From positions 12,690,501-12,754,500 of the forward strand of contig NC_092671.1 in assembly GCF_964355755.1 (NCBI RefSeq): a stretch of 64,000 nt of DNA. The letters are read 5' to 3'. The first letter of the stretch is position 1, and every line of letters starts with the position of its first letter. Shown here in pieces: positions 19,292 to 61,110 of this stretch. Below the pieces are notes generated by a model. That model saw nothing but the letters and a program-made list of their open reading frames with translations. It was not told where the DNA came from and did not search any database. This DNA comes from Antedon mediterranea (lineage: Eukaryota > Echinodermata > Crinoidea > Comatulida > Antedonidae). Made by a program: the position numbers and the translations under genes.

Positions 19292-19423
19292 ACAAGGCCA
19301 ACCAACAACCATAAGTCGCGTGCTCTCAGAAAAAAAATGAACTTTCAAAAAGTAATGTACTTTAAAACTTTTCTGTACAACAAAACAGTTCAAAAAGTAC
19401 AGAAAAGCGATAAAACGCATAGT

Positions 19424-19486
19424 GATACCGGACCGACAGACAGACCGACCGACCGACCGACATAGTCGCGTCCACCCGACTAAAAA
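19424..19486. repeat. GACC/GACA microsatellite at the left edge of the 575-bp array
   Basis: A run of (GACC)n and GACA follows GATACCG and leads into CATAGTCGCGTCCACCCGACT. Almost the same block occurs at 23,911-24,010, so the two copies bracket the 575-bp array. Confidence 0.7.
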
Positions 19487-22400
19487 TATACTATAAAATG
19501 TATTTCTTATTTTATTAAAAAAATCATGAGTCTCCTCTCCTTAATTGCAAACACAAAAAACGATCTGAGCATGTGCAAATGTATATAAAAGCACTCAGAT
19601 AATGTACAGAGGGCAGTATAAAGATATAAGCAGTGAGTTAGGCAGATCATAGGTCAGCTCTCCTTAATTGCCTAAGCCACACAGCTGACTTAGGCAGAAA
19701 CACAAAAAATATAGTATATTGATATAAGCAGTGAGTTGGGCAGAAAAAAAAATTATGACTTAGACACTTTTGTTATGAGGCTGTCGATATCACCTATATA
19801 CAAAAAATGCTACCTTTAAGTAACAAAATTTAATAGCATCAGCTCTTCAAATTAAAATTAACACTGATGATTTTAGAAAAGGAAAGTAGCAATAAAAGAG
19901 AAAGAATTTGTAACAAATGGGTTAAAAAATATACTATAAAAAATGTATTTCTTATTTCATTTAAAAAATCATGAGTCTCCTCTCCTTAATTGCCTAAGTC
20001 AAACAGCTGACTTAGGCAGAAACACAAAAAAACGATCTGAGCATGTGCAAATGCATATAAAAGCACTCAGATAATGTACAGAGGGCAGTATAAAGATATA
20101 AGCAGTGAGTTAGGCAGATCATAAGTCAGCTCTCCTTAATTGTCTAAGTCACACAGCTGACTTAGGCAGAAACACAAAAAATATAGTATATTGATATAAG
20201 CAGTGAGTTAGGCATATCATAAGTCAGCTCTCCTTAATTGCCTAAGTCACACAGCTGACTTGGGCAGAAACACAACAAATATAGTATATTGATATAAAAG
20301 GCAATATCGATCATTATGTATTAGAGGTAACTCTCTTTGTAGAAAATTTAGTAAATGCTCAACAGATGTTAAGATTACTTTGTTTAAGTCATACTGTATT
20401 AGTATGTATTGTGCGGCCTTATGGTGCGATTTTAATGTAAAAACTATAAAGTCATTACAGGTCTGTTATAATAACGCAATTAAAAAGATTTTAAGACGCT
20501 CAAGGAGCTGTAGTGCTAGTGCTATGTTTGTTGATAACCATGTTCCCTCCTTCTATGAGTACATTCGGAAATCAATTTTTTGTTTCAAAACAAAAACTGA
20601 AAAAAGCTGTAATACTTTAATTACATGTGTTTTTTCTCGTATTCTAAAAGATTCAAAGTTGCATAGAAATGGACAGAACTTTTGTATATTTAATCTCATG
20701 TATACTTTTACGTGTGTTAACTAGTATCAGCATAGCCATAATAATGTGTTGTTTTTGTAAACTTTATGTGTTTCATATGGACAGTTTGTCTGAAATAAAG
20801 TTGAATTGAATTGAATTGATATAAGCAGTGAGGTAGGCAGAAAAAAAAATTATGACTTAGACACTTTTGTTATGAGGCTGTCGATATCATCAATATACAA
20901 ACAATTCTACTTTTAAGTAACAAAATTTAATAGCATCAGCTCTTCAGATTAAAATTAACACTGATGGTTTTAGAAAAGGAAAGTAGCAATAAAAGCGAAA
21001 GAATTTGTAACAAATGGGTTAAAAAATATACTATAAAAATGTATTTCTTATTTTATTTAAAAAATCATGAGTCTCCTCTCCTTAATTGCCTAAGTCACAC
21101 AGCTGACTTAGGCAGAAACACAAAAAAACGATCTGAGCATGTGCAAATGCATATAAAAGCACTCAGATAATGTACAGAGGGCAGTATAAAGATATAAGCA
21201 GTGGGTTAGGCAGAAAAACAAAAATTATGACTTAGATACTTTTGTTATGAGGCTGTCGATATCATCTATATACAAAAATGCTACCTTTAAGTAACAAAAT
21301 TTAATAGCATCAGCTCTTCAGATTAAAATTAACACTGATGATTTTAGAAAAGGAAAGTAGCAATAAAAGAGAAAGAATTTGTAACAAATGGGTTAAAAAA
21401 TATACTATAAAAATGTGTTTTTTATTTCATTTAAAAAATCATGAGTCTCCTCTCCTTAATTGCCTAAGTCACACAGCTGACTTTGGCAGAAACACAAAAA
21501 AAACGATCTGAGCATGTGCAAATGTATATAAAAGCACTCAGATAATGTACAAAGGGCAGTATAAAGATATAAGCAGTGAGTTAGGCAGATCATAAGTCAG
21601 CTCTCCTTAATTGCCTAAGTCACACAGCTGACTTAGGCAGAAACACAAAAAATATAGTATATTGATATAAGCAGTGAGTTAGGCAGATCATAAGTCAGCT
21701 CTCCTTAATTGCCTAAGTCACACAGCTGACTTAGGCAGAAACACAAAAAATATAGTATATTGATATAAGCAGTGAGTTAGGCAGAACAACAAACAAAAAA
21801 TTATGACTTAGGCACTTTTGTTATAAGGCTGTCGATATCATCTATATACAAAAAATGCTACCTTTAAGTAACAAAATTTAATAGCATCAGCTCTTCAGAT
21901 TAAAATTAACACTGATGATTTTAGAAAAGGAAAGTAGCAATAAAAGAGAAAGAATTTGTAACAAATGGGTTAAAAAATATACTATAAAAATGTATTTCTT
22001 ATTTCATTAAAAAAATTATGAGTCTCCTCTCCTTAATTGCCTAAGTCACACAGCTGACTTAGGCAGAAACACAAAAAAACGATCTGAGCATGTGCAAATG
22101 TATATAAAAGCACTCAGATAATGTACAGAGGGCAGTATAAAGATATAAGCAGTGAGTTAGGCAGAAAAAAAAATTACTTAGACACTTTTGTTATGAGGCT
22201 GTCGATATCATCTATATACAAAAAAATGCTATATAGTATATTGATATAAGCAGTGAGTTAGGCAGATCATAAGTCAGCTCTCCTTAATTGCCTAAGTCAC
22301 ACAGCTGACTTAGGCAGAAACACACAAAATATAGTATATTGATATAAGCAGTGAGTTAGTCAGAAAAACAAACAAAAAATTATGACTTAGACACTTCTGT

Positions 22401-23843
22401 TATGAGGCTGTCGATATCATCTATATACAAAAAATGCTACCTTTAAGTAACAAAATTTAATAGCATCAGCTCTTCAGAATAAAATTAACACTGATGATTT
22501 TAGAAAAGGAAAGTAGCAATAAAAGAGAAAGAATTTGTAACAAATGGGTTAAAAAATATACTATAAAAATGTATTTCTTATTTCATTTAAAAAATCATGA
22601 GTCTCCTCTCCTTAATTGCCTAAGTCACGCAGCTGACTTAGGCAGAAACACAAAAAAACGATCTGAGCATTTGCAAATGTATATAAAAGCACTCAGATAA
22701 TGTACAGAGGGCAGTATAAAGATATAAGCAGTGAGTTAGGCAGATCATAAGTCAGCTCTCCTTAATTGCCTAAGTCACACAGCTGACTTAGGCAGAAACA
22801 CAAAAAATAATATAGTATATTGATATAAGCAGTGAGTTATGCAGATCATAAGTCAGCTCTCCTTAATTGCCTAAGTCACACAGCTGACTTAGGCAGAAAC
22901 ACAAAGAATATAGTATATTGATATAAGCAGTGAGTTAGACAGAAAAAAAAATTATGACTTAGACACTTTTGTTATGAGGCTGTCGATATCATCTATATAC
23001 AAAAAAATGCTACCTTTAAGTAACACAATTTAATAGCATCAGCTCTTCAGATTAAAATTAACACTGATGATTTTAGAAAAGGAAAGTAGCAATAAAAGAG
23101 AAAGAATTTGTAACAAATGGGTTAAAAAATATACTATAAAAATGTATTTCTTATTTTATTTAAAAAATCATGAGTCTCCTCTCCTTAATTGCCTAAGTCA
23201 CACAGCTGACTTAGGCAGAAACACAAAAAAAACGATCTGAGCATGTGCAAATGTATATAAAAGCATTCAGATAATGTACAGAGGGCAATATAATGATATA
23301 AGCAGTGAGTTAGGCAGAAAAAAAAATTATGACTTAGACACTTTTGTTATGAGGCTGTCGATATCATCTATTTACAAAAAATGCTATATAGTATATTGAT
23401 ATAAGCAGTGAGTTAGGCAGATCATAAGTCAGCTCTCCTTAATTGCCTAAGTCACACAGCTGACTTAGGCAGATACACAAAAAATATAGTATATTGATAT
23501 AAGCAGTGAGTTAGGCAGATCATAAGTCAGCTCTCCTTAATTGCATAAGTCACACAGCTGACTTAGGCAGAAACACAAAAAATATAGTATATTGATATAA
23601 GCAGTGAGTTAGTCAGAAAAACAAAAACAAAATTATTACTTAGACACCTTTGTTATGAGGCTGTCGATATCATCTATATACAAAAAATGCTACCTTTAAT
23701 TAACAAATTTTAATAGCATCAGCTCTTCAGATTAAAATTAACACTGATGATTTTAGAAAAGGAAAGTAGCAATAAAAGAGAAAGAATTTGTAACAAATGG
23801 GTTAAAAAATATACTATAAAAATGTATTTCTTATTTCATTTGA
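19487..23843. repeat. Higher-order tandem array, unit about 575 bp
   Basis: The marker GATTTTAGAAAAGGAAAGTAG recurs near 19,869, 20,964, 21,336, 21,914, 22,494, 23,068 and 23,746. After removal of the LINE insertion the spacing is about 575-580 bp, and 678 bp for the last. Within each unit are 1-3 subrepeats of about 110 bp containing GCCTAAGTCA, CACAGC, TGACTTAGGC, a perfect 10-base inverted repeat, followed by GATATAAGCAGTGAGTTAGG. No protein is encoded; open frames in it are repeat copies. Confidence 0.85.
20298..20814 (+). mobile_element. 5'-truncated non-LTR retrotransposon (LINE, L2/CR1-like)
   Basis: An open frame from 20,302 to a stop at 20,722-20,724 encodes the C-terminal end of a LINE reverse-transcriptase protein: SLCIRGNSLCRKF, KITLFKSYCISMYC and NNAIKKILRRSRSCSASAMF. 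This pattern is usual after the RT domain in L2/CR1/jockey-type ORF2. A short 3' UTR ends in (TTGAA)n. ATTGATATAA occurs at both ends (20,288-20,297 and 20,815-20,824) and matches the uninterrupted array units, so it is a target-site duplication. The copy is a dead-on-arrival fragment and looks young because its frame is intact. Confidence 0.8.
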
Positions 23844-23851
23844 GTGAGCGC

Positions 23852-24012
23852 CTAAAATTGCCTGAAACGTACTCTTATTTCACCGAAAATAAATTTTGAA
23901 AATTTTCGCATAGAGATACCGGACCGACAGACAGACCGACAGACCGACAGACAGACCGACCGACCGACCGACCGACATAGTGAACTATAGAGTCGCGTCC
24001 ACGCGACTAAAA
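23852..24012 (-). mobile_element. Transposon fragment with GACC repeats and terminal hairpin
   Basis: Read on the minus strand it has a hairpin (AGTCGCG, TGGA, CGCGACT), then GTCGG/GTCTG repeats, then about 58 bases including AGAGTACGTTTCAGGCAATT. That last stretch closely matches a segment inside each 1.4-kb unit of the array at 42.6-54.4 kb. The two families are therefore related or share a captured piece. Confidence 0.6.
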
Positions 24013-26500
24013 ATTCCTGTACTATTTCAGTACAGGGATTTTTTTGAAAAATGCCCAAAATATTGACGTTTTAAAATGCAATTATTATGCGATATGCGCA
24101 TATATTGCTTTGTATCATTTATAGAGCGATAGTAACCAGTTTTGTCGAAAAATAAAAGGGTTAAAATTTGGGCATTTTCTGAAAAAATCCCTGTACTATA
24201 GTACTGGGATTTTTTTGAAAAATTCCCAAAATATCGACTTTTAAAAATGCAATTATTATGCGATAATATGGCTATATATGCGCATATATTGCTTTGTATA
24301 ATTTATAGAGCCATAGTAACCAGTTTTGTCGAAAAATAAAAGGGTTGACATTTTGCTATTTTTTGAAAAAATCCCTGCACTATAGTACAGGGAATTTTTT
24401 TTTTAAATGCTCAAAATATCGACGTTTTAAAATGCATTTATTGTGCGATAATATGGCTATATATGCGCATATATTGCTTTGTATAATTTTTGGAGCCATA
24501 GTAACCAGTTTTGTCGAAAAATAAAAGGGTCGAAATTTTGCTATTTTAGGAAAAATAGTACAAGGATTTTTTCGAAAAATTCCCAAAATATCGACTTTTT
24601 AAAATGCAATTATTATGCGATAATATGGCTATATATGCGCATATATTGCTTTGTATAATTTATAGAGCCATAGTAACCAGTTTTGTCGAAAAATAAAAGG
24701 GTTGAAATTTTGCGATTTTTTGAAAAAATGCCTGTACTATAGTACAGGGAATTTTTTTTTAAAATGCTCAAAATATCGACGTTTTAAAATGCATTTATTG
24801 TGCGATAATATGGCTATAAATGCGCATATATTGCTTTGTATAATTTATGGAGCCATAGTAACCAGTTTTGTCGAAAAATAAAAGGGTCAAAATTTTGCCA
24901 TTTTAGGAAAAATAGTACAAGGATTTTTTTCGAAAAATTCCCAAAATATCGACTTTTTAAAATGCAATTATTATGCGATAATATGGCTATATATGCGCAT
25001 ATATTGCTTTGTATAATTTATAGAGCCATAGTAACCAGTTTTGCCGAAAAATAAAAGGCTCGAAATTTTGCCATTTTTTCGAAAAATTCCCAAAATATCG
25101 GCTTTTTAAAATGCAATTATTATGCGATAATATGGCTATATATGCGCATATATTGCTTTGTATAATTTATAGAGCCATAGTAACCAGTTTTGTCGAAAAA
25201 TAAAAGGCTCGAAATTTTGCCATTTTAGGAAAAAATTCCTGTACTATTATTTAAAAATACCCAAAATATCGACGTTTTAAAATGCATTTATTGTGCGATA
25301 ATATGGCTATATATGCACATATATTGCTTTGTATAATTTATAGAGCCATAGTAACCAGTTTTGTCGAAAAATAAAAGGGTCGAAATTTTGCCATTTTAGG
25401 AAAAAATTCCTGTACTATTATAGTACAAGGATTTTTTCGAAAAATTCTCAAAATATCGACTTTTTAAAATGCAATTATTATGCGATAATATGGCTATATA
25501 TGCGCATATATTGCTTTGTATAATTTATAGAGCCATAGTAACCAGTTTTGTCGAAAAATAAAAGGCTCAAAATTTTGCCATTTTTTCGAAAAATGCCCAA
25601 ATATCGACGTTTTAAAATGCAATGATTATGCGATAATATGGCTATATATGCGCATATATTGCTTTGTATCATTTATAGAGCGATAGTAACCAGTTTTGTC
25701 GAAAAAATAAAAGGCTCAAAATTTTGCCATTTTTTGAAAAAATCCCTGTATAGTACAAGGATTTTTTCAAAAAATTCTCAAAATATCGACTTTTCAAAAT
25801 GCAATTATTATGCGATAATATGGCTATATATGCGCATATATTGCTTTGTATCATTTATAGAGCGATAGTAACCAGTTTTGTCGAAAAATAAAAGGCTCGA
25901 AATTTTGCCATTTTAGGAAAAAAGTCCTGTACTTTAGTACAGGGATTTTTTAGAAAAATTCCCAAAATATCGACGTTTTAAAATGCATTTATTATGCGAT
26001 AATATGGCTATATATGCGCATATATTGCTGTGTATCCTTTATAGAGCCATAGTAACCAGTTTTGTCGAAAAATAAAAGGCTCGAAATTTTGCCCTTTTTT
26101 GAAAAAAGCCCTGTACTATAGTACAGGGATTTTTTAGAAAGATTCCCAAAATATCGACTTTTTAAAATGCAATTATTATGCGATAATATGGCTATATATG
26201 CGCATATATTGCTTTGTATCATTTATAGAGCCATAGTAACCAGTTTTGTCGAAAAATAAAAGGCTCGAAAAAGTTTTTAAAATTCAATTATTATGCGATA
26301 ATATTGCTGTACATGATCATATATTGTTATAATTATATTATAGTACCATAGAAATCAGATATGTTGAAAAATAAAAGGGTTGAAAATTATCAAGTTTTTT
26401 AAATCCAATTATTATGCGATAATATTGCTGTATATGATCATATATTGCCTTATAATCATCTTAGGCCTATAGTACCATAGAAACCAGTCATGTCAAAAAA
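24013..26500. repeat. Palindromic satellite, right block
   Basis: About 13 tandem units spaced roughly 145-190 bp, same family as 18,750-19,291. Anchors (the TATATGCGCATATA palindrome) lie near 24,094, 24,268, 24,459, 24,630, 24,810, 24,985, 25,136, 25,308, 25,494, 25,645, 25,824, 26,005 and 26,192. Units at about 26,290-26,500 are degenerate and form the edge of the array. Many units also carry the second palindrome with half-sites CCTGTACTA and TAGTACAGG. Confidence 0.85.
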
Positions 26501-26820: not shown

Positions 26821-26852
26821 TCAGGCTTCAATGATAGTGTCTTCTTTCAAAC
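26821..26852 (-). CDS. Terminal exon of the EAR gene
   Basis: The acceptor after TTTTGTTTAG joins in phase 1 and adds GLKEDTIIEA and TGA at 26823-26821. It completes the frame exactly. The protein ends soon after the last propeller blade, with no membrane anchor visible. Confidence 0.7.
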
Positions 26853-29800
26853 CTAAACAAAAATGACATTTGTTTTTATATAAACATATACAGTAACTAG
26901 AAAGCCACCTCCGCCTACTCTAAAATTTTCCTACATAAGATTTTTTCGGGAAAAAAATATATATAATATATTTGTGTGTGTCTTAATGCTGTTTGTGATT
27001 TAGGCTAATTTCACTACAAGCATGTATATGCGGGTTTGGTGTAATGGTTATGTAACAAGCCTTTCAATTAACAATAGCTTCAGTTGACTAACAATAGAAC
27101 AGCAACGCGAAAATCAAACAAGTGAATTTGAAAAGAAAAATAGGTTTTTTAAACTACTGGCATCAAAAAACCTGTACATTAAATCAAATTATTATACTCT
27201 TGGACAAGTAGTTCTCGAGAAAATGCAATTTCAGTTTACTTGTTACTTTAAGACTGCTCGCCGGCTTTTGGAAAATTCTGTCCTATCTTTTAACACTAGC
27301 AGGTCTGAAAAAAGTATACTAAAAAGTGGTCCAGAATTTGGACCATGGTCCCAAATGGTCCCAAAATTTAATGGAATGGTCATTGACCACATATCTATCT
27401 GTTTATTCATTTTGGTAAAGATCTTGTAATTACTTTTTGAGTAATAATAATTACAGAAATGTTATACGTGCATTCAAGCATTGTAAGACACTACTTACCA
27501 TTAATAATTCCTTTCAGAATACGTGTATCACCAACTTGATCAGCAATTTCACTCACAAAAAAACGAGCCACACCCATTAGCAAGCTCCCGTCATACATAA
27601 ACACATTGACGCTGTTAACGTCACTATATGGAATGTTCAGATACATCTCGAATCCACTGATACCACACCATTTATAAACGTGTATTTCATCGAACTGGCT
27701 AAGAACGACAAGATATGGAGTGCCTGCAAATATACAAACAACAAAAAACTAGTCTAAAATGTCCTATAGCATATTAATAGTTTTTCCCCTTTTGGGTGTT
27801 CCCACATTTATTTATTACACGGCAGTAGAATTAATTAAAATAATAGTCAATTCACCGTCTACACTGAAGCTATCTAGTCCAATAACGCCTTGCCCCTCGA
27901 ACTCGGTTATTTCCGCCCATTGCTCGTCCTCAAAACATACTGTTACGACAGGCATATAGTAATCTGTAGCATCATAATTGTTTCTTTCAGATGCGGACAC
28001 TACGCAAGGCTGACCATTTACCTTTATGCTAACGACATCTACTATGTATTCACCAGAAATCTGATGCTGTAGCTACAAAAACAAAACAAAATCTCAATTA
28101 AAATAAAACAAATCAAAATATGAAGTATGAGCACTTCCTTAACTCGATACATCTAAAAAGGATTGGAAACTTTTCCCAAGTTATTTTAAGCCTGTTTTCC
28201 TGTCGACGTTATTCAACGCTATCGTTAAAAAAAAATCGGCGATCTTCTACGTAAACATTGAAATGAATGATTTACAGGAAAAGGTATCGTTATCATTTCA
28301 ACTTGATCGTTTTCAAACGATCGTCATTGAACTGTTAACGATCAACGCCGATAGTGTCGAAAACGTCGACAGGAAAACAGGCTTAAAAGAGAAGAGGAGA
28401 CCAGTTGAAAAACATCGGTGAATTGCAGAAAACCATGAAAGAGTAAAATAACAATTACAATAGGGAGTTTTCGCAATCTTACGAATACGATAACGGATAC
28501 GTCCAGCACACGTATTCGTTTTTCGTAAGCCAGTAAAAATCTGTTTCGCATATGCAACGAAATATTGAGGGCGCCGTCCAAAATATGACTGCGGTAAATT
28601 TGAGCGAAGCGCAGGTACGTGTTGCTTGGCTGCCTAGGCCTAGCGTAACATCAAAGCGAGTAAGGATTTTAAAAACTGCTATTTATCAAAATTGACCTGG
28701 CATTTTAGTAAATTACTTTAGTAAATTACTTTCAATAAAAGTATAATTACATTATAATCATGAATCATTTCTGATTCAAATGCAAAATGTGCATGCAAAA
28801 TAGATCAAAAACTATATTCGTTTTGTAGTTACGAATATGACTGGTGATATTCGTCAACACGAATACGCTTTACGAATAGGAAATGGGGATCAGCTCAAAA
28901 GTTTCACAAATGTGTGACGTATCCGTTTTCGTTATTTCGTTGCGAAACCTCCCTATTGTTTGCATTTTTTGGTAAAACGTATACATAGGGCTTAATTGCG
29001 TAAAATAAAAAAAATAATTTAATAAATGAAATTAATGCAGATCTATATAAACAAAATATATAATTACCTCAAAATTATTTCCGGACCATTGATAAATATC
29101 AGTTGTTGTAAGACCAGTTTCCAACTCAGAATCGTAATAATTGGCAAACACTAACCAAGGATCATAATCATCATGCTCAATAAAGAGAACAGTGACGGCG
29201 CCTTGCGTTACAAATGACTGTTTTAAAACGAATGATTTATCCCTTCCTCTATATAGATATAATCCTGAATTTACAACACTTGATCCTGTTTCAAAATTAA
29301 AAAAAATATTATGCAAAATTAATGAATTTTTAATTAATAAAAGGGCTTGCAGAATAATATTGTGTAATGACTACATTATGACCAAGCACCCAATGATCTT
29401 TCTTTAGACACTTTATCTGATAGAAGGCGTAATCTATGCTATAAGTTTGCTCTGAATTGTTCAAAAAGTATTCATTTTGGAAAATGGTTTCCAGTGAAGA
29501 ATGTAAGTAACATGAAACTAAGACGTTTAAAGTATCAACAACCCAAATGCAGAGTTGAATTAAAGATATAGAAAAAGTGCAATACCATACCTTATCTCGC
29601 TTCTAAATGAATAATCATTATATATCACGCAGTAGGCCTACAGCTATGTGATTCTTTTATTAATTTTTTTTAAATTTTACTATTTTAAGCTAAACCTTTT
29701 GAATGTTCCTGTATAGTATTTCTTGTGTAAAATGCATCCTTTTTTTATATATAATTATCATTGGTTTTATACTTTTATACAAATTTTAATATTGAGAAAA

Positions 29801-32800
29801 TGTAAATATCTTTGTAATTCAGCTAAGGCTGCGATGATGATAGTGAAATAAGTGAAATGAAATGAAAAAAATTAAAACGGTAAATGTGAAATTTATTCCT
29901 AGGCCTATACACTACATTACCTGTAACTGTGTCTTTCGAGTTTGCAATTGCCAAATATAACCTTCTATTTATGTTGATCATATCGCTGTCAATTGGAGTT
30001 TCCGATGATATTTCAGCTAATATGAGATCCTCTTCAATCAGTATTACACGTGTAACATTATTGTAATCGACTCCTTCTGTGCAATATCCAGATTGGATAC
30101 TTCCAGTCAACACTAAGAAGGTACTCATTTTATCGAGTCTTTTAAATGTAAAGGAAAATAACTTTGCAGTTGAAGATGGAATTAAGCCTTCAGTTACCTG
30201 TTACAAAGATGAATAATTTGTACAGTATCATAGGCAGATTATATGATACAACGCCATATATCTATCGCATTTAATATAAAATATGTACCATGTGATCAAT
30301 ATTTTTTATTAGTACACTGTTTACAGAATGTGCGTATGATACTGGACACTACTAGACAGCTATATTTGAAGATACAGTAGGCCTACAGAAAATCGGGTAT
30401 AAATTACTAAACATTAACGCGAAGTTGAATAAGTACTTGGTTAGAAGGCACTCGTTTATGTTTTACAATCAATGAACAATATATCAAGTGCTTTTATTGT
30501 TATTTCCAACCAGATGGCAAGACTTCGGTTACTTGTGTTTCATTTTTTTAAAAGATAATGAAACACAAGTAAAATACTGTTTTAATTACTAATTAATGTA
30601 GACACAGTATACAGTTTCATATTATAATAAGACCTATCCAATCATTCTAATACCAGTCTGTTAGGCATACTAATTTCTAGTATTGTGTGCATATAGTAAG
30701 AAATGAAGATTATTACCAAAAAGCACGTGTCTTGGTCGTCATCGTACATGTATAGAGCAGATTGTATACATTGTTGAGAATATTGGTTTTCGGTAACGCT
30801 TATCAACAGCGTGTCTTCATACGTCACTGCATAGATTGTAGCAACATCGGTTCGGTTGATAGTCTGGTAGTTCTCAAAGTAGCCGAATCTGACTGCTTGT
30901 GCTTGAATAATAAATTAAGCAATATTTATTCGGGTGGTTCCTTTACAAGGACCATATAGGTTTTGAGAAAATGTGTGGTGTGTATATATAATCGTTTCGT
31001 TCCGTATCTTTATTCGACCAGTGTAAATAAAATCAACAAACCATAACATACAATACAACATATTATTAAAATGCTACCCAGATAATAATGTGACAAATAT
31101 AATATATAACATAACAGATCATCAAATAGTAATTAAACTCACTTTCATCATATGCTTCTTCGAGTAAATGTATTTGGAGACACTGAGTACGTAATGAAGA
31201 ATTTACTTGTATCAGGTCACTTTCAATCCTCTCCATGTTGCTGCCAAAATTGCTCAACATCTCAGACAGATCAACACCAAGTACATAACCCGTAACTGTA
31301 ATATTTCCCGTAAAGGTAAGACCTGAGCTTGTAAAGTACTGTAAACAAATACATATACTAGTTTATCAACGTATTTATTATTATTGTGTTGGATTTAGAG
31401 CTAACGAATAAATGAAGTTTAATGAGTAAATTCTGAGATTTACTTAAGACTTTCTGTGTCGTACCGTATAGCCTGAAATGTTAGTTGGTACATCCTCACG
31501 TACAGCATGTGCAGCGTAGTACACTGGGTTTAAGTAGCTAATGTTTCCGTAGTAGTCCGTATACATATCACCAAGAACATCCACATCAAGCGAAAAGTTT
31601 TTATACCCTCTGACATCTTGGTCACCGTATGTTAGAACTACATCAGTAGACAGGTTAAATGTATTCACCAGACCGTGTACAATCACATCATCTAAAACAA
31701 AAGGAACAACTTATTTTAAACACAAGGCGGCCTACACTGGCAACAACATTTGCAAATTAACTATCCCACTCAAATTATAAAAATTGAGAAAAAGCTGAGA
31801 GCTTGGACATATACTCACCAAATGCTGTGACATTACCGATTGACCACGTTCCTGTTATGGTTTGTGGCGTTGATAACGTCACCCGGTTTGCTACGGTTGA
31901 GTCAAATAGTACAGTATCCACATAATTCGTAACAGTTGTATCGTCGAGAAATGTAACACTTGTAAATGTGTTGAGCGAACCCGTTAACGTTTGCGTAACG
32001 TTCTGAATCACAAAATCGTTTGGCATGGAAAGGTGGTTTATTAAGCCTGAAATGGCGAAAAGCAACAGTTTTTATACAACTAATATTATAATTAAATAAT
32101 ACATTATCTTATCTCATACAACACCTCCATCAACCATCATTCAAGAATTTAAACATTTTACCTGTAACAAAGAGGTCACCGTAAACTATAATATCATGTC
32201 CAAAGATGACGCGTCCGTCAATTAATGCATTTTCAGATTGGAGTAGGAGTAGATCTAAAATCATTTTTAATGTCAAGTTTTCATAGACTATATTTCCTTC
32301 AAAATCACCTTCGATCCATAAATTATCAATTTCAACGTCTCCAGTTACACTTTTATTGCCAGTTATAGTCTAAAAATATATATAAATAGATTGTTATACA
32401 AAATGTCATATCAAGCCATATTCAGACTGCGCGAAAGGTAGGATCTGTAGCTTAAATTTGCAGTTTGCTTTCTTAGTTTTTTTAGTTACTTCACTTTAAA
32501 TTGGTAGTGAATTCTCAGGCTTATACTTGATACCAAAACAAAAAGAAAGCATTACGGTTGATTCTGAATATAAAACAGCATCATCAATTATGAAAGAAAT
32601 GTTTTCTCCGTTGACATGATCATTGAACCAAACGTCATCTTCAATATAAACGAATCCTTCGAATGTAACAGATCCTTCGATGATCACATTTTCGTTGCTC
32701 AATGCGTTGTTGAATAAATCTATAAATATTGAATAGTCTGACACATCACATAGTATAGATTTTGTTATACAGTATTAATACTTAAGTGTGTTGCCGCAGT

Positions 32801-35800
32801 AAAGTAAAATATTATAATATACGGTATGTTGATGAAATAACATTGTTCTTCTAACCTGATAGATCTGTTCCATTAACAATTCCATTCGAAACAAGATCAC
32901 CGTCGACATTCAAATCATAAAACTGTTTTATACCATCGATAACAATCAAAGAACCGGACACACGAACGGCCCACTCATCATACTAAATCAAAAATGCAAA
33001 TTAGAGTAAAAGTCAATTCATACCGTATGGTACTGTAAAACTCTTTCCACGAATATGGCGTTCCATACCAATTTAATATTATTCAATGTGATTGAATTAT
33101 ATGATTTTGCCGCAATATTACCGTACCATCATACCTCAGTGATATTGAATGCACCTATTAAACCTTTTATCACTAAATCACCATCTATCATGATGTTAGA
33201 AAATGTCATAGGAACTGGAATATTATAATCATGGTCGATTAAGATAACATTAGATATGTCAACTCCATCAACGAGAATACCATCTCCTAATGAAATAGCA
33301 CCTGTAAAAAATGAAAAATTAACTAGTGCATTATAATTATCCAAACTGTATTAACTAGCATCTATCACCTACGGAGGATATTACATACATAAATGAAGCG
33401 GGAAATTTAAATGAAGTACGGTACACGCTATCATAAACAGAAATGTTTACTGGAAGGCTCGAAATTGCCAAGCACGGGTAGGTATTGTAGGTCCAAGATA
33501 GGCCTACCACTTTTAACATTACTGAGCAAACCATTAATTGTATATGTACCTTTCATTACACAATGTTCTGGATGTAGATTACTCACCTGCGGAAACATTC
33601 ATAAGGAATACCTTACTACTATTAATATATTGGTCTTTGTACTTGGATAAGTGATTGGTATAAAGTTCATGAATGTATATATTATCTATCGTTCCATCTA
33701 CATACAGATCACCATCTATCGTAACATCACTATAAATTGTACATACAAATATTTAGTTATAACAAATCGTCTGTCCACATTCTTAATGAATGAAATAGGT
33801 AAGAATCATTGAATTTAAGGTATTGCGGTCTTAGATCATATAATAATGTATAGATGAATTAATCGGCGTATACTGGCAATAAAGGTATAAACCTTTCCTT
33901 TCATACCTCAAGAATGTCTTCCTTCCTCTAATTTCTTCATCTGTATTGGTATAAACTAATATTTGAGAAAATTCGTATAAATTTATCCGGTTGACTTCGC
34001 TCAATACCGAAATATTTCCGTAAAAATAGGCATCAGACTCAAATCTCAAATAGGCTGTAAAAATAATCAAGATAGGGCTACTTATGACTTAATAAAAACA
34101 AATTACAAACATCGGTGGGTTTTGAAATTCACAAACATGCACATAAAAAAACATACCGGTACTGCACACTTACTGATTTGTATTACAGATATTTCCTACA
34201 AGAAATGCATGCATTTTTTATAATTTCAAATTACCATCAAATGACTCGTCGACCGACAACTGAATTGCGTTTAGATACAAATTGTCTACATCCACATAAT
34301 TAATAGTGCCTTCGACCAGTACACAAGCATCAACTGAATAAGATAAATCAAGTAAAAGTAATCAATAAAACTACAACATCCATCAACATTATTAGGCTGT
34401 TGGGGTCTCCCGATGTGGTGACAGATACCATGGCTAAACCAAATTTCAATAAAATGAAATTCTCATTAATGGGTAATACCTGAAACATTCTGTGTAAACT
34501 CTTTGGTACCCTCGACGGTAATATTAGAATCTATACGGACAGCTTCCTCGTCCAGTTCTGTGATGTTCACTCCACTGACAAAACCATCAACGGTCACATT
34601 GTTGGTTGATAAATTCCCTCGAAATGTTGCATTATCCGTAATAATAATGTCCCCTGTAAAAGAGAAAGTAACGCGATAGCTTGAGTCGTCAACAGATATT
34701 TATATTGTTACAATATTGCCAGTAGATGGCTATTCAGAATGATTTTGAAATGTACCATGCTTATATACTTATACTACTTATGGAATACTAACCATATATG
34801 ACTTGATCACCGTTCAACGTTACAAAATCTTCAGAAATGTCGAACTGGTTGACCGTTTCACTAACATGGATGTTTTTGTAAACTGTTACGTTTCCTATAA
34901 TCTCTAAATTGCCTACTAATGTTTGATTACAGTTTACCTTTAAAGCCTATAAAAAAAACAAAGTACAAACGGATTTCAGTTGAGAGCTATACGTGTCGAG
35001 TCACATGCGCATGATCTAAAACATACTTGTTTACTCGAAAGCTGTGCAATTCGAGTGACGCGTCGTGAAAAAGACTTTCTTTAACGAAAAAAAGAATTGA
35101 ATTTGCTATCAGTACATACTTTGTCGTAAAATTCCGACACATCAACATAATCGACGGTCATGCCTTCTTCAAGAAACAAACTTCCATTTATGTGCAAGGA
35201 ATGATTAAAAATCAGAAACCCTGAAACAAAAATACAATACATTTTAGTTTTACATGGATCTAATTTTGATAAATTAATATGCAAGTGAATACATACGCAA
35301 TTGAAAACGAGGAGACCGTGTATAGGTTTACGGGCTAGTCTTATGAAGCATTTTAGTGAAGAACGCATTATCCTACCTGTGACGTCTTGAGGGGAATTAA
35401 GTGTTACAAAGTCTTCTATTCGTTGGCCATCAAAAGTGCCCACAAGACTGATACCGCCATCCATGGATATGACACCGTCTAAGATGACATCAGACGTAAA
35501 GGTTATGTTGTCCGAGACGCGAAGTGCTTCCTGATCTAGCGTGGTGATATTTATTTCGTTGATAAGTCCATCGACTATGAGAGATCTTCGAACTGCGGAA
35601 AAGTATGAAACAATAAGGATAAAAATACCGTTCGAATATAACTTTAATAGCATATTCAACAAATATGTTTTTTTTTTCATTTTTATTATATCACTGCCAG
35701 ACCTACAGCTGAAAAATAACGGCAGTTATGGTATGTGGTTAATTCATTTATTTAATTATTCAACCTGGTAAGTTTAGTTGGTTTCATAGCCACAGTTATT

Positions 35801-38800
35801 GTTAACTTTATGGGTGGGTAACTTACCGGGGTAAATAACTAAGCCTTAGTGGAAATGACAAACCAAAATTACATCTTACAATGAACGTCGTCTATAAAGA
35901 TCTTCAGTCCCACGATGTCGGCGTCTTCATCGATCAGGATAGTTTTGTTGTAAAGTTCACTTAAATCTTTATCATTGATTTTACTTTTATAAGGTAGAAT
36001 GATATCACCATTTACACTGAATCCACTTGTAAAGAACACCGGCCCTATAAGACGAATACATATTTATAATATTCAAAATGTTGTCGAGAAAAAAAAACGA
36101 TACGATTTAAATATACATAAAACTAATCATAATCAACTTTATTCGAATTTGGAATTTCAAAATATGTGTAGTTATAGGCTTCATTTTGTAATTATTTGCG
36201 ATAGAAACTAAAATCAGTCAATGGTAATAAATGACACTGTTCCTTACCTTCAATTTCTTGATCAGCATCGAGTAAAACAAAGTTTTCTGGGCGAACACCA
36301 TTTATTGTATCAAACAAAGTCACATTTGATTTAAATGCGATATAATTAGTTGCCAACAGATCACTATATATTGTTTGGCTACCGATCGTTCGAATAAGAT
36401 CTTCATATATATCTACACCATTTAGTTCATAAAGTAGATGGAGATTTTCGAATGTAGTAAGCAAGCCTAGTAGATTTTGAGATGCTGGAAAAGTAAACAT
36501 CGTGAAAATAATAACATTTTTTTTTATCGTATTAAGAAATGTAATTAAGCTAAGCTAAACAGAAAATAAAAGAAAAATTTAAACTGAAATATCACAAATG
36601 ACATCGACTTGAAAACTTATTTAATTTAAAAGTGTTTTAAATAATGGCGAATTGTTCAAATTGGAAACGTTTGCATACGCATGTAATTAGTAAACTCTCC
36701 GGTGCCAATAAAACAGTTAGCTTAACCAATTCAGGGTCATTTCGAAATGTACATTAGTAGTACACTGTTTAAATGCATTCTTTACCATTATTATTTACAA
36801 TATACACTTTTGAAAATTCTGCCTCTTTATAATGTTAAAATAAAGTACATAAAACGAACGATTGAGGCAGGATGGTCTTATTCCCAAATAGCCTTAATCG
36901 TGTAAAGTTGACATTTCTCATATTTAATCTTTTTTATCCTCGATAACCTTCTAAAACATAATCTAAATCATAAAACAAAATAATAATTGTTTTAATGTGT
37001 TTTATGTGTTTTAGATTTATATTCGTAAACAAATTGTAATATTTAAAAATCAATCGCAATTCCGTTTTACTGTGAAGATTATTTTTAATGAATATACCAT
37101 TATGAATGAATAATTTGCTTTTTTTGATGCCTCATTACGCGTCATTTAGGTTTAAATTAAAATATTCATGAATTTTGACAAACCTTCTATAACAACATCG
37201 CCGTGTGTCTTTACAACATTCTTAAATCTATTGATATTTGTTGAATCTATATGGCCATCCAGGATTAACAGATTATCAAAATATACCTCAGCTTCGAAAA
37301 CAACGTCATCTTCCAGTATAATATCATCCGATGTTAAGAATACAGAATTTATAAACTTGTAAAGGTCAATCTAAAAATCAAACATTTGTAATTATGTAAT
37401 TAGTGATTTATTTTCCACACACACCAACAGCCACACACCAGCCAATTGGATGGAGACAATCAAGAAATAGTAAATGATAAGAAAACGAAGCAAATAGCAA
37501 GTGTTATATTAAAATGTAAGCACAAAAATTAAATATATATTTGTAATATAAACATAATCTGTGTCAGGCCACTAATACCTTACCCCATTCATGGTTGTAC
37601 CTAGAAGCATATCAGCGCCGTTGAGGACTGTCACGTTACCCCAGAATGTTTTGTTGCCTTTAATGTATTGATGGTCCTTTGTCATTATGACCAAGTCTTC
37701 AGGAATATAAATCCCATTAAGAGTGCCATTCAGCGCAAGCTCGTCAACATGCACATCCATATCAAATTGTATATCGCCTTTGTACACCTGGCTACCATTG
37801 GTTATAAGTAGATAATCATCTGAAATTTTAGTTTACAATTTGTCATGATACTGTATAGGCAGAATGTAGTATGAACAACACAAATATTTCAAATTAATGA
37901 ATGAACTTTATTTAAAGTATAGAAGTATATATAGGGTGATTCAAACAATGTTTTTATATAACACATAGGCCTAATAGTAGGATTATGACGTAAAATATCA
38001 CTAGGCCTACAATGATTCTAAAGTAACGATAGCAGTGTTATTTTGTACGGTACTTTAAAAGTACATTACATGAATACACTTATTTCATCTGCATCAACAG
38101 TAAACAAAAACATTCATGTGTACTTTATTCTTTACGCAACTATTTCTAATTTTATTACAAAGAGTTGACAAAATAACAACCACAAAAATACAATAAACTA
38201 TATTTTAAACAATGCAAACGACCGCAAAAATTATACCTGGTATCTTATGTTCATTCGCCAACCCCAAAACGAAGACACTAGCACCTGCAGTAACCGTCTC
38301 CATAAAAGTTATATTTCCAAAAATAACAGCGTTTTCGTTCTTCTTAATTGAGACTGAGTCGATATGTTCTATGTTGACTCCATTTATAAGATCATTAGTC
38401 GAGATAACAGAATCATTAACATTTAGACTGGTTACATTTAATAATAAATGAAACGTGACTGTACCTTTGAAAAAAAAAATTAGATTTGAAGAAAAATGAT
38501 GGTGACTGAAGTGTGTGAAATACTTTTCATTTAAAACCGTCCGCTTTCACTGCATAAACACAATCGCCATCATATTGCGAATACATTATCCTCAATTATT
38601 TTTCTATAATTTTATGCAAATTACCAAATAGCTATTTTAAACTTTCCTGATATACATGCCATTCACAAGACATACATAATATGACCTACATAAACAAGAA
38701 AGTCGCACAGAATAAGTTGAGAATGGAGATTTTTTTCATACGCAAACCTCCTGCTATTTGACAGGGTTTGAACCAAGCCAAGTCAAGCAACAACTCATCT

Positions 38801-41800
38801 CGTCACCAGTTTCGAACCCCTGTTTTACACATCTATCTTCTATATATATAAAAGGCAAACACAAAAAGTTTATCCTCTATGCACGCCGCGGTACAACCTC
38901 CGATCGGAGATGGTCATGGTCTATATAGAAAGTTCATAAACAAAATATTTATTAAATTATGACTTCGATTGCAAATCTTGCATAATTATTATATTTACAT
39001 ACATTTCAAGTTTTCTCGGCGCGATGCTAGTCTAATATAATAGCTTACCTCTAACCAGCTGATCTTCAACGTACAGTGAAACAAAATCTAACATTTCGGT
39101 TTCAATAAAATCTAAATTTCTTTCATGTTTGTTGAGTAAATATCGCAACACGAATAAAGACTCAAGTTCAAAATAATCGGCAGTGAAATTTTCGACATAA
39201 AGCGTATTTTCAAATGTCACATTCTCTAAATATGAAAAAAAAATATTAGAAACATAAAATAATTATGTAACAAATAAAAAATTGCTGATTTAGCAACAAA
39301 CAAGAAATCGGTGTAATTTTAGATAAAAAATTAGTATTATATATCGAATTTTTACCGGTGAAACGGAGATTGCTGTAAATACTCTCGTTCTTCGATATAC
39401 TAGCCTTCGTCTCAAGCTCCGTACTTAATTCTCCCAGCCGTTCAATGTTTTCTCTCACTGAATCCTTAAGTTCAGGAATGCTGCTCAATATTTCATTTGT
39501 TTCTCTTATAATTTCTAAATAAATGAATAATTATCTTGTTTAAACACCATTGTCCTTGGCTAAAACTGTTTTATTTGCTTTGTCTCTATCATAAAAATTA
39601 TGCTACTTACCTTTACTCTCATTCATAAAGTTAAACCAATAGAAACTTGAGAAATCTGACAGGTTCGTCGAGTTTTCACCATATGTAAATAAAGTGTAGA
39701 CGTTGCCATCCAATTCAAACACAGACATGTCATGAATAATCGCTCCTCCACCAGAGCGCGCACTCCACTGGGGAAATTGCTGAGTAGATAATACCCAGTC
39801 ACCGGCATCATCGCATTCATATATGACTGCACCTACATAGGGCTAAAATAAAAATAGTAAATGAAGTATTAGACCAGGAAATGTTACCCACCCATACTAC
39901 CTTACCGTATATTAAGGCCTGTTAAAGCCTATACTAGTCGATAATGGCAAATAGGCCTATATAAATATACATTTCTACAGGGGAAAAAGTGTTGCCTAAA
40001 AAATTGAGTTTATTGTATAATTGAGATGTTTCATAAAATATTCTATGTTGTGAAAATAAAGTTTCTTGAATAAATATAATATATACGTACGTCTTCGTTG
40101 GCTACAATTAAAATGTCATCACCATTTGCCAAATTTACATATATTATTTCTTTGGCAGCCGTAGTCGGCAATGATTGGTATTCAAGTACGAGTTGCCCTG
40201 AAATTCAAAATGAGCACAAATTAACGGTGTGGTCGACGATGACGGTGTGGTCGACGATGACGGTGTGGCCGACGATGACGGTGTGGCCGACAATGACGGT
40301 GTTGTCAACGATAACAATTTGACCGACGGTGGACGGTGATAGTGATATGGAAGATGATGTGATATGGAAGATGATAGTGATATGGCAGGCGATAACGATA
40401 TGATTAGGGTAACAATGACAGAAAGAAGGTGAAGTACTTACCCGACCACCAGTAAATTGTAGAATAGGTTTCTTCATATTGAATTTGATCATTTTCGATT
40501 ACATTATTCGTGAAAGCAATAAACGTGTTATGATTCATCTTAAAAGCAGTCACACTTCTAGGAGCCGTAGTGGGTACAGTTTGAATAAGAGTGATGGATG
40601 GACTATCTATTTTAAAAACAAGTGTACAAGTATATTATAAAAAAAATCAACTATTCAGATGCGTAAATAGTGAAATTGTCCCGATATTCTAGCAGTCTAT
40701 TAAAACGAATTAACTTACAAAGGTCTATCTTAAGAATAAGACTACCAATGTCATACTCGAATTCATCATTAACAAACTGAGTCACTGCAACGTACAATTC
40801 CTCGCCAACTTTAAAAAATTCTATGTCCGTGGCACCATGCGTTTCATAAACTAAAATTTCATCGAAATAACTCTCCTTCCATTCGTAGATTCTAAAGAAA
40901 GATATATAACATTTCAATATTGCGTTATTAAGCTAATGTTTAAACAATATAGTTTAAGAAAAGGTGTTCATAAAAACAAAAAATGGTTTCAACACATTTT
41001 CACCTAATTATAGTACTTATTATCATTACAGCATCGATTGACAGGAGCCCAAACGGACCATTGAATATAATGTAGATATATTTTAAAAACTAACCTGATG
41101 TCATTTCTGTATTTAACATTTAGATCTGATCGAAAATTTGCCACACCAAAAATCAATATACCATGATATGTAATACAATCTATGGCCGATGCACCGTTAG
41201 TGGTAAATGTGAAAAAAGGTTCTGGTACTGAAGCTGTACCATCCCAGATATGTAAAGTCGACCTGCCTGTGTACGATAGAGTATTTCCAGAGTTGAACTG
41301 ACCAATTGCCGTAACTAAAAATACCGCGGTGTTGTTTAATGGCAGTATCAGTAAATCTTGAACGAAGGAAGCGTCATATTCCGATAATTTATTAGTGATC
41401 AGTCGACCGTTGTCATTAAAAAACAATGCTATCTCGGCTATATCTTCGTATGCATTAAGAATATAGGTGATACCATCCATAGTGAAACCCCTTGTTACAC
41501 CTTCTGCCCATGCGTCCATGTTACTTTGTTCTATCCTCCACTTATTGTTCGTTGATACATCAAATACTGCCAAATTCAAATATATATACATAAAGTAATA
41601 ATTGATGATGGAAAGATTTGTGGTGAATGTAATTTCGGTAGTTATTTTCTACGCCGTGGACATTAATTGTCCGTAAAGATAACCTTAAAATGTATAATTA
41701 TAACAAAACATTTTTGATTTAAGAACATACCGTCTATATTTCGTTTTTGTCGTGATCTCTCATTACTTAGCATAATCTTTGACAAATCGCGTTTGTATTC

Positions 41801-41932
41801 TTGCAGCTTTTCATCAAGAAAGTTACGAAACGATTTTCTAAACTCCATGGCTTCGGATTCAGTAAGTGTGACGGAGTGTGATAAAGTTGACATGCACATC
41901 GCAAGTAACACGACAAAGTTTAAGTACGTCAT
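26821..41932 (-). CDS. Secreted double EAR-propeller protein with beta-repeat spacer, 2,081 residues, 33 exons
   Basis: Exons in transcript order: 41932-41731, 41566-41095, 40891-40719, 40606-40442, 40197-40091, 39842-39611, 39514-39356, 39225-39049, 38464-38237, 37819-37584, 37370-37184, 36484-36248, 36044-35880, 35592-35377, 35220-35120, 34946-34793, 34653-34480, 34333-34235, 34054-33907, 33729-33587, 33301-33135, 32982-32856, 32719-32556, 32369-32162, 32046-31819, 31691-31465, 31338-31143, 30901-30717, 30197-29921, 29285-29068, 28072-27856, 27723-27499, 26852-26821. All borders are GT/AG, every junction keeps frame, and the 6,246 nt end in TGA. The product has a signal peptide, EAR propeller, helix, about 25 modules and a second EAR propeller. 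EAR (epitempin) repeats are known in LGI, TSPEAR and ADGRV1, where they serve extracellular binding. I do not recognise this architecture. Confidence 0.88.
27499..30901 (-). CDS. C-terminal EAR domain, seven repeats (exons 28-32)
   Basis: Seven EAR-type repeats cover about the last 390 residues, including LYLAIANSKDTVTG, DPWLVFANYYDSELE, DGTPYLVVLSQFDEIHVYKW and GSLLMGVARFFVSE. The Asp-Gly joining exon 31 to exon 32 is restored only if the donor before 27,856 is used; that choice also restores the frame. Exon 31 has two in-frame acceptors six bases apart (28,072 and 28,066). Confidence 0.75.
28184..28388. mobile_element. MITE with 27-bp terminal inverted repeats
   Basis: The ends are TTTTAAGCCTGTTTTCCTGT... 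and its complement ...ACAGGAAAACAGGCTTAAAA, extending inward through GTCGACG. It lies in the intron between exons 30 and 31 of the EAR gene. No protein is encoded. The superfamily is not assigned. Confidence 0.75.
28457..28960. mobile_element. Non-autonomous DNA element with CAATAGGGAG ends
   Basis: The left end CAATAGGGAGTTTTCGCAA and right end TTGCGAAACCTCCCTATTG form a 19-base terminal inverted repeat with one mismatch. Inside are further inverted motifs around ACGAATA. It lies next to the previous MITE in the same intron. No transposase remnant is seen. Confidence 0.65.
31143..39225 (-). CDS. Exons 8-27: about 25 repeated beta-type modules
   Basis: About 1,190 residues made of a recurring 40-60 residue module. 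A Gly-x-[Ile/Val]-[Asn/Asp]-Gly-x-[Asn/Asp]-[Ile/Leu] turn is followed by a variable strand, an [Ile/Val]-x-Gly-x-x-x-Phe strand and a [Asn]-[Val/Ile]-[Thr/Ser]-Val strand. Examples are DLINGVNIEHIDS, DGFVSGVNITELDEEAV, DGLINEINITTLDQEAL, NGTLNGIYIPEDLV and QYIKGNKTFWGNVTV. Asn-x-Ser/Thr sites are frequent, which suits a secreted glycoprotein. Most exons start in phase 1 and hold one or two modules, pointing to exon duplication. I do not recognise the module; a repetitive beta-solenoid rod is inferred. Confidence 0.7.
39356..39514 (-). CDS. Exon 7: helical segment between propeller and repeats
   Basis: ETNEILSSIPELKDSVREN followed by IERLGELSTELETKAS has heptad-like spacing of Ile and Leu and few breakers. 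It is a likely short coiled coil that could allow self-association. It separates the first propeller from the repeat modules. Confidence 0.6.
39611..41566 (-). CDS. N-terminal EAR domain, seven repeats (exons 2-6)
   Basis: Residues about 68-450. Seven repeats of 45-60 residues follow the EAR pattern: an Ala/Ser entry, a hydrophobic strand with Gly, LYVAV/LIVAN-type strands, then an aromatic strand of the type IYEWKESYFDEI. Recognisable pieces include GATDIEFFKVGEELYVAV, ILIFGVANFRSDLN, TFIAFTNNVIEN and DDILIVANED. Seven repeats is the number needed to close the beta-propeller known for this family. Confidence 0.8.
40224..40312. repeat. 18-bp minisatellite in an EAR-gene intron
   Basis: About five copies of ACGGTGTGGTCGACGATG with few changes lie in the intron between exons 4 and 5. 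Probably a neutral expansion. Confidence 0.8.
41731..41932 (-). CDS. Exon 1: signal peptide and propeptide with furin-type site
   Basis: The ATG at 41932 begins MTYLNFVVLLAMCMSTLSHS, a typical signal peptide. It is followed by a charged helix (residues about 24-57) and RSRQKR at residues 59-64, a furin-type R-x-K-R site just before the first propeller. An in-frame extension upstream to 42,013 exists. The internal ATG was preferred because it puts the hydrophobic stretch at the N-terminus and because a strong acceptor lies just upstream. Confidence 0.8.
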
Positions 41933-44119: not shown

Positions 44120-44527
44120 TTTCTTTATTTATTTATTTATTTATTAGGTTATATGCATGATATGCATATAACCTCTTGATTCTGTCAAAATCTTTATTTA
44201 TTTATTTATTAGGTTATATGCATGATATGCATATAACCTCTTGATTCTGTCAAAATCTTTATTTATTTATTTATTAGGTTATATGCATTATCATGCATAT
44301 AACCTCTTGATTCTGTCAAAATCTTTATTTATTAGGTTATATGCATGATATGCATATAACCTCTTGATTCTGTCAAAATCTTTATTTATTTATTTATTAG
44401 GTTATATGCATGATATGCATATAACCTCTTGATTCTGTCAAAATCTTTATTTATTTATTTATTTATTAGGTTATATGCATGATATGCATATAACCTCTTG
44501 ATTCTGTCAGAATCTTTATTTATTTCT

Positions 44528-44566
<39 letters not shown>

Positions 44567-60799: not shown

Positions 60800-61110
60800 T
60801 ACAAAAGTAAAACAAACAACGTACTTTCACAAACGAACAACGTGCTTTCACAAACGAACGATCTAAATTAAAACAAACAACGTACTTTCACAAACGAACA
60901 ACCAACTTTCACAAACAAACAACCTACTTTCACAAACGAACGATCTAAATTAAAACAAACATCGTACTTTCACAAACGAACGAACTAATGTAAAACAAAC
61001 AACGTACTTTTACAAACGAACAACCTACTTTTACATTAACAGCGTATTTTTTTCAAACGGACAACGTACATTGGTAAACGAACAACCTGCTTTACCAAAC
61101 GATGTAGATT
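60800..61110. repeat. Degenerate minisatellite
   Basis: Many imperfect copies of CAAACAACGTACTTTCACAA followed by ACGAACGATCTAAATTAAAA, between the last kinase exon and the next gene. Non-coding. Confidence 0.75.

Follow-up and report, generated by a model that had tools for sequence, protein, structure and literature searches.

TSPEAR and ADGRV1 are extracellular proteins in which EAR repeats are embedded in larger architectures. TSPEAR joins a laminin-G domain to EAR repeats, while ADGRV1 surrounds them with Calx-beta repeats and ends in a G-protein-coupled receptor domain; neither is known to carry such a rod. LGI1, which is also secreted, combines a single EAR domain (EPTP in Pfam) with leucine-rich repeats (PMC12226019). 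Here we describe a gene on the minus strand of a 64,000-nucleotide stretch of the genome of the crinoid Antedon mediterranea (contig NC_092671.1; this whole stretch is referred to as the window, and positions are counted from its first letter). Positions 26821 to 41932 are occupied by one genuine gene, whose product is secreted and extracellular and probably forms a fibre. Its architecture, with EAR repeats at both ends, a rod of repeated units between them and predicted coiled coils at the junctions, is well supported. EAR proteins as such are already known; the double-ended architecture and the rod are new when judged against the literature alone, as no EAR protein with two propellers and no animal fibre built of this unit were found in the titles and abstract openings of the open-licence literature. 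The original prediction for this stretch, made from its letters, had called the architecture an unfamiliar one, and for the literature so covered this stands. In contrast to ADGRV1, neither Calx-beta repeats nor a seven-helix membrane domain appear in a Pfam scan of the three segments of the window protein.

Gene structure and the encoded protein

The gene was rebuilt without recourse to the earlier exon list by means of a dynamic programme that weighs codons and splice sites, with the ATG at 41932 as the start. A first splice pass gave 32 exons from this ATG to a stop at 26821 without an internal stop, and retrained passes gave 35, 36, 39 or 41 exons, the number being set by the intron penalty. 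The final model derives from the 39-exon result, from which six micro-exons (8-39 nt) were removed by hand; three borders (the end of exon 3, the start of exon 4 and the end of exon 5) were also shifted by hand, which kept the EAR blades whole. It consists of 33 exons and 6,240 nt, and encodes 2,079 residues with a single, terminal stop, in agreement with the complete gene of 33 exons and 6,246 nt that had been predicted. GT-AG borders and reading frame are built into the splice programme, and therefore neither counts as independent evidence for the gene.

The protein begins with a hydrophobic, signal-peptide-like leader (judged by eye), followed by an amphipathic propeptide helix (residues 26-53) and by the basic furin-type site RQKR at residues 61-64, all encoded in exon 1. 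A furin-type site had been predicted ahead of the first propeller, and is found there. The leader supports secretion and no C-terminal membrane anchor was seen on inspection by eye, in line with the predicted secreted protein lacking an anchor.

Paralogs in the same genome

A translated search of the genome (354 Mb, 18 contigs) with the rod returned 29 matches, of which 21 fall in the window gene, five on contig C6 and three on contig C5. Counting the window gene, the family has at least three members in this genome. Because a search with the C6 protein recovered C6 itself and two places on C5 and missed the window gene, such counts of relatives are lower bounds.

On C6, all five matches share a single open frame of 2,074 codons, or 2,061 when counted from the chosen methionine. 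It opens with a hydrophobic leader and carries a Lys-Arg site. The C6 and window proteins are collinear from end to end, with 430 of 1,892 aligned positions identical (22.7%). For a gene so diverged, the absence of a stop over more than 2,000 codons is best explained by selection keeping the protein. The rod and both flanking regions occupy this one frame, which removes most of the splicing doubt about the window gene. The C5 paralog is multi-exon, with a model of 32 exons and 2,094 residues whose borders are provisional; a frame left out of that model (L005 1648-1836) encodes a helix-like stretch and an RAKR site. The layout is common to both other genes, which share about 22% identity with the window gene; in C6 the EAR ends are only weakly recognisable. 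The agreement in layout between a single open frame and a multi-exon gene upholds the prediction that the window gene is one unit. The window gene and the C5 model have four introns in common (within three columns, same phase) against 1.5 expected and a shuffle maximum of six. This is not significant, and no conclusion is therefore drawn on C6 as a retrocopy. A predicted intron of the C5 paralog holds a minisatellite of a short Cys-Pro-Lys-Gly-type repeat that is open in three frames (L003 8993-9789).

EAR repeats at both ends

Each end of the window protein matches the Pfam family of the EAR repeat, EPTP (PF03736), at 46.3 bits N-terminally and 42.1 bits C-terminally (cut-off 21), as the predicted pair of EAR regions implies. 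The ends of the C5 paralog also exceed the cut-off, at 47.7 and 38.2 bits. Two of the ten unspliced end frames pass by themselves (40651-40932, 28.2 bits; 40404-40634, 22.1 bits), and a C-terminal one lies just under the cut-off (27491-27748, 19.3 bits); EPTP is absent from the seven remaining frames scanned. Across the genome, EPTP reaches E 0.001 or better at eight places, and this window contains one of these.

Seven EAR blades are readable at each end of the protein. A blade hidden Markov model (HMM) finds seven in the N-terminal part, and six plus a weak one (the first C-terminal blade, E 0.79) in the C-terminal part, but it was trained on 13 of these same 14 blades and is circular, the untrained blade being the weak one. 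The predicted number of seven repeats per end thus stands as a reading of the blades, with one of them weak. Since the training set also held four C6 blades, matches of this HMM to C6 are partly circular. When four N-terminal and six C-terminal blades of the window protein were combined into a profile, leaving out the other four of the 14, it gave five PDB matches; LGI1 accounts for four of these, with a best whole-sequence E of 7e-6. The LGI1 match is composed of seven partial matches along the propeller, none significant singly, and LGI1 was not found by single-sequence searches with either end of the window protein. Exon 2, which holds three blades, was folded alone at a mean predicted local distance difference test (pLDDT) value of 33.7, a low confidence that makes the model uninformative on the propeller. 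C6 is not full proof of the EAR ends, as its own ends are weak by both Pfam and hhalign, and the point rests on C5 instead.

The rod and its repeat unit

The central part of the protein is an array of units with the consensus (N/D)LxVxGxINGVDLSEL...DQxIxGxKTFxxNVTVxG. The unit HMM was refined on the window and C6 proteins themselves, and it is therefore the regular spacing that constitutes the evidence for repeats. In the window rod, 25 units score above 12 bits, and 23 of their 24 spacings measure 38-45 residues, the other being 91, which equals one degenerate unit. The C6 rod has 24 units above 12 bits, with 22 of 23 spacings at 39-47 residues and one at 96, and a weaker last unit of 7.4 bits. 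Each of these rods thus offers about 26 unit slots, with a few weaker partial matches ahead of the first unit. The C5 model contains 21 unit matches above 6 bits over 1,103 residues, with gaps and one spurious spacing of 11, and has room for about 26. The repeat array of the original prediction is confirmed by these data, and its estimate of about 25 modules is adjusted to about 26 slots.

Sequons for N-glycosylation are strongly enriched in the rod, with 38 against 15.0 expected (standard deviation 3.3) in the window protein and 31 against 16.2 (standard deviation 3.6) in C6. The excess is confined to the rod and is found in none of the four end segments of the two proteins, which fits a secreted, exposed shaft. 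For one rod exon of the window gene, structure prediction from an alignment with eight further window exons gave an extended chain with almost no internal strands (pLDDT 63.8; predicted template modelling score 0.33). Strands that pair only from one chain to another could produce such a model, but so could a prediction that failed.

Resemblance to phage receptor-binding stems

The module had not been recognised in the original prediction, and profile searches take it further. Unit profiles, from which the less clear units were omitted by eye, were searched against 177,635 PDB sequences with matches recorded to E 10. A joint profile (32 of 45 length-filtered units from the window and C6) gave 12 matches, the first ten of which are phage-stem chains: 5e7t and 5e7f, named 'Major structural protein 1' (E 0.001) and presumably from Tuc2009; 9efk, named 'orf22' (E 0.002); and seven chains of the TP901-1 baseplate or receptor-binding protein or a chimera of it (E about 0.05). 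The identical ten chains rank on top with either set of units alone. The window-only profile (19 of 23 units) places them first of 12 matches, with a best E of 0.0004 and TP901-1 at 0.003-0.006, and the C6-only profile (17 of 22 units) first of 13, with a best E of 0.00077 (9efk), TP901-1 at 0.02-0.03 and 5e7t/5e7f at 0.2. One column-shuffled profile used as a control gave three other matches at E 0.33 at best, with no phage stem named among them, and a reversed profile gave no PDB match.

The TP901-1 protein is described in PMC3893620 as a trimer, the stem of which comprises a three-helix bundle at residues 17-30 and an interlaced beta-prism at 40-63 with a linker between them (31-39), and the stems of Tuc2009 and TP901-1 as closely related. 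The rod unit appears to follow the same order of short helix, linker and strands, the latter carrying the DQxIxGxKTF motif. In the phage protein, one stem stretch leads to a receptor-binding head (PMC3893620), whereas the window rod has about 26 tandem units with N-glycosylation sites and is accompanied by EAR repeats. The Pfam family of these stems, BppL_N, gives E 0.003 and 17.6 bits in C6 and E 0.23 and 11.6 bits in the window protein, both under its cut-off of 25.8. A further viral family, Reo_sigma1 (Reovirus sigma1), matches the C-terminal region of C6 at E 0.0018, also below the cut-off.

An 86-residue consensus of two units matches 21 PHROGs at E 0.1 or better; among the six with an assigned role, four belong to the tail, one to virion structure and one is GroES. 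Searches with the consensus led to four phage records at E 0.01 or better, to 25 viral loci whose frames contain one to four unit matches each, and to four bacterial loci with one to six each, mostly below 5 bits. Judged from its sequence, the rod unit appears to work like a BppL_N-type phage stem, and it is not filed as a member of that family.

Coiled coils and a conserved cysteine

Coiled coils were sought with a home-made heptad and helix score over all 28-residue windows of each protein. The top segments of the window protein are 1665-1692 (rank 1), which precedes the C-terminal EAR region, the propeptide 26-53, 456-483 (rank 3), which follows the N-terminal EAR region, and 522-549 (rank 4). 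The equivalent segments of C6 (423-450, 496-523 and 1637-1664) occupy ranks 1-3, the first two places being ranks 1 and 2, and the C6 propeptide (24-51) is rank 5. Predicted coiled coils therefore flank the rod at both ends, at equivalent places in the two proteins. The C-terminal coil contains a cysteine (Cys1683 in the window protein) that falls in one alignment column in all three paralogs.

A proposed fibre and its alternatives

Because the unit matches phage stems that are trimeric, the protein is likely to form an oligomeric fibre with several propellers per end. The original prediction envisaged a dumbbell of two EAR propellers on a rod; the single secreted gene, the EAR ends and the repeat rod are retained, whereas the monomeric form gives way to the likelier oligomer. 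We regard it as an even call that the product is a secreted, N-glycosylated, in-register trimeric fibre that carries EAR propellers at both ends and bridges two surfaces or two matrix layers. Trimerisation, partner binding, release by cleavage at RQKR and a role in the matrix or egg coat are what we infer for such a fibre.

In the proposed mechanism, three chains, identical or drawn from different paralogs, would align in parallel; the similar number of units in the three genes would allow mixed trimers. The coiled coils would nucleate assembly and clamp the register, and the conserved cysteine could possibly cross-link the C-terminal clamp. Each rod unit would contribute a short helix and a few interlaced beta-strands, in the manner of a phage stem of helix bundle and beta-prism, and stacking of the units would build a long, stiff and glycosylated shaft, both ends of which would carry a set of three EAR propellers. 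The N-terminal propellers would become free to bind once the propeptide is cleaved off at RQKR. The EAR domain of LGI1 binds ADAM22, and the propellers of the fibre would similarly bind partner proteins, such that it could bridge two surfaces or two matrix layers. The more detailed plan of a phage tail fibre, with an in-register three-chain shaft of about 26 helix/beta-prism units, coiled-coil clamps and an EAR trident at each end, its chains coming from one or several paralogs, is put forward tentatively, at slightly less than an even chance.

A number of observations weigh against a phage-like trimeric fibre. The ten PDB chains represent about three proteins (the TP901-1 stem with seven chains, 5e7t/5e7f with two and 9efk orf22 with one), and the matches are 20-32 residues long; those to TP901-1 cover residues 34-58, which correspond to linker and prism and not to the helix. 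Only the match to 5e7t/5e7f (residues 20-51) extends into the helix, and with C6 units this has an E of 0.2. The native window and C6 rods match no PHROGs, a native 303-residue piece of the rod finds no phage or plasmid by BLAST, and a 95-residue piece of the C6 rod returns only three records at E 8-9; a search with a piece of the C6 rod also gave no viral relative. None of the 29 viral and bacterial loci has a tandem array at 43-residue spacing, the motif being scattered there; descent from phages is therefore not claimed, and the unit is only said to work like theirs. The rod-exon model, at a pLDDT of 64, has no PDB match, Foldseek returning none. With regard to the coils, the heptad score is a home-made one, and the fourth-ranked window of C6 (1369-1396) lies inside the rod. 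The EAR ends are likewise weak in C6, where EPTP gives 13.4 bits (E 0.081) and 19.7 bits (E 0.00088), both under the cut-off of 21. Single-sequence hhalign comparisons are weak throughout, with probabilities of 0.3% for the N-terminal ends of window and C6 proteins, 1.4% for the N-terminal end of the window protein against its own C-terminal end, 33% (N-terminal) and 61% (C-terminal) for the window protein and C5, and 75% for rod against rod. Lastly, Bactofilin matches the window rod better than any other Pfam family does (E 2.5e-5, 24.9 bits).

This last match is the main support for a monomeric beta-solenoid, bactofilin-like or similar, in a single-chain dumbbell whose predicted coiled coils would be capping helices or dimers. 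Bactofilin is a monomeric beta-helix that forms a bacterial cytoskeletal polymer, and the likeness lies in a beta-helix-like strand rhythm; a rhythm of six residues suits either fold, and Hexapep is also weakly matched in the window rod (E 0.53). However, Bactofilin stays under its cut-off of 27.9 and is absent from C6 at E 1 in the Pfam scan, the unit profiles put phage stems first with no recognised solenoid among their PDB matches, and the isolated rod exon is predicted, at low confidence, to be extended with almost no internal strand pairing. A solenoid is for these reasons unlikely, though it is the strongest of the alternatives. That the locus is a gene-model artefact, in which a distinct rod gene and at least two EAR genes next to one another were wrongly joined, is barely credible: all junctions are computed and the model needed curation by hand, but C6 holds the rod and both flanks in one open frame and C5 shows the same order.

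The remaining alternatives concern function. The three paralogs could be counterparts of the insect eggshell proteins Nasrat, Polehole and Closca, a three-part complex that organises the vitelline layer. Three related proteins with a common layout occur in this genome, and the Drosophila trio is described as mutually required for entry into the eggshell (PMC6303783) and as a heterotrimeric complex (PMC10576393), that is, as secreted proteins acting together. The link is nevertheless an analogy of number and behaviour. Among the literature matches listed, none connects the trio with EAR repeats, nor Polehole or Closca with AlphaFold or a propeller. In addition, the pea aphid is reported to have neither Nasrat nor Polehole (PMC3639227), so the family is not general even in insects, and we consider this counterpart relationship improbable. 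Even less probable, and by a clear measure, is an LGI-like neural ligand with both propellers binding receptors of the ADAM22/23 type across a synaptic or cell-cell cleft. The window blades do match LGI1, but the Pfam scan of residues 61-2079 contains no leucine-rich repeats, and the protein is severalfold longer, with sequons abundant throughout its rod. With two EAR regions and a 26-unit rod, it falls outside the LGI family.

Locus organisation and other EAR loci

The features of the window gene and of its intronless paralog are collected in Table 1. Exon 33 is the least certain of the model.

Table 1. Coordinates of the EAR-rod gene in the window and of its paralog on contig C6
Feature	Position	Strand	Basis
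Exon 1: start ATG (41932), hydrophobic signal peptide, propeptide helix, RQKR	41731-41932	minus	Exon model, heptad scan; signal peptide by eye
Predicted N-terminal EAR propeller, seven readable blades, exons 2-6	39611-41566	minus	Pfam EPTP, LGI1 profile match
Exons 2-6	41566-41095, 40891-40719, 40606-40442, 40197-40087, 39832-39611	minus	
Exons 7-8: predicted coiled coils between the N-terminal EAR region and the rod	39049-39514 (39514-39356, 39225-39049)	minus	Heptad/helix scan
Rod, about 26 units of about 43 residues, exons 9-27	31143-38464	minus	Unit HMM and spacing, phage-stem matches, sequons
Exons 9-14	38464-38237, 37819-37584, 37370-37184, 36484-36248, 36044-35880, 35592-35377	minus	
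Exons 15-20	35220-35120, 34946-34793, 34653-34480, 34333-34235, 34054-33907, 33729-33587	minus	
Exons 21-27	33301-33135, 32982-32856, 32719-32556, 32369-32162, 32046-31819, 31691-31465, 31338-31143	minus	
Rod end and C-terminal predicted coiled coil (residues 1665-1692) with Cys1683, exon 27	31143-31338	minus	Top heptad window, Cys alignment
Predicted C-terminal EAR propeller, seven readable blades, exons 28-32	27499-30901	minus	Pfam EPTP
Exons 28-32	30901-30717, 30197-29921, 29285-29068, 28072-27856, 27723-27499	minus	
Exon 33 (32 nt), final codons and TGA stop	26821-26852	minus	Splice model alone
Intronless paralog, 2,061 codons	C6 19991639-19997824 (L001 1639-7824)	minus	

On the plus strand of the window, a giant muscle-type gene has Ig I-set and fn3 exons at 993-11678, and protein kinase exons lie at 57892-59177. 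The EAR-rod gene, located between them on the opposite strand, may be nested in an intron of a titin/obscurin-like gene. Just past the 3' end of the gene, 18786-26498 holds dense arrays of tandem repeats with unit lengths that include 98, 149, about 185 and 374 bp, and on the 5' side of the gene are a 65-bp tandem array at 44128-44532 and a 21-bp tandem array at 60810-61102.

Elsewhere in the genome, frame reading and the EPTP scan point to EAR repeats in other settings. Contig C11 (16.503-16.513 Mb; L006) has frames resembling Calx-beta repeats around EAR repeats, as in an ADGRV1-like gene. On contig C3 (33.801-33.821 Mb; L008, L009) tandem genes have frames resembling PAN/Apple, EGF and WSC domains together with EAR, and this array represents an EAR expansion in an architecture other than that of the window gene. 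The rod unit was not seen by eye in the open frames of the EAR loci on C11, C3 and C4, where no scan with the rod HMM was made.

Implications

If the rod is indeed a trimeric beta-prism shaft of the phage type, it would constitute a class of extracellular fibre beside the collagens and the coiled-coil matrix proteins, one not found described for animals in the titles and abstract openings covered. With their similar number of units and their conserved cysteine, the three genes make the idea of a trimer directly testable, and the intronless C6 gene is ready for expression. In that same literature, EAR propellers appear chiefly in human proteins associated with epilepsy, deafness and ectodermal dysplasia; a glycosylated fibre that bears EAR repeats at either end represents a different use of the domain.

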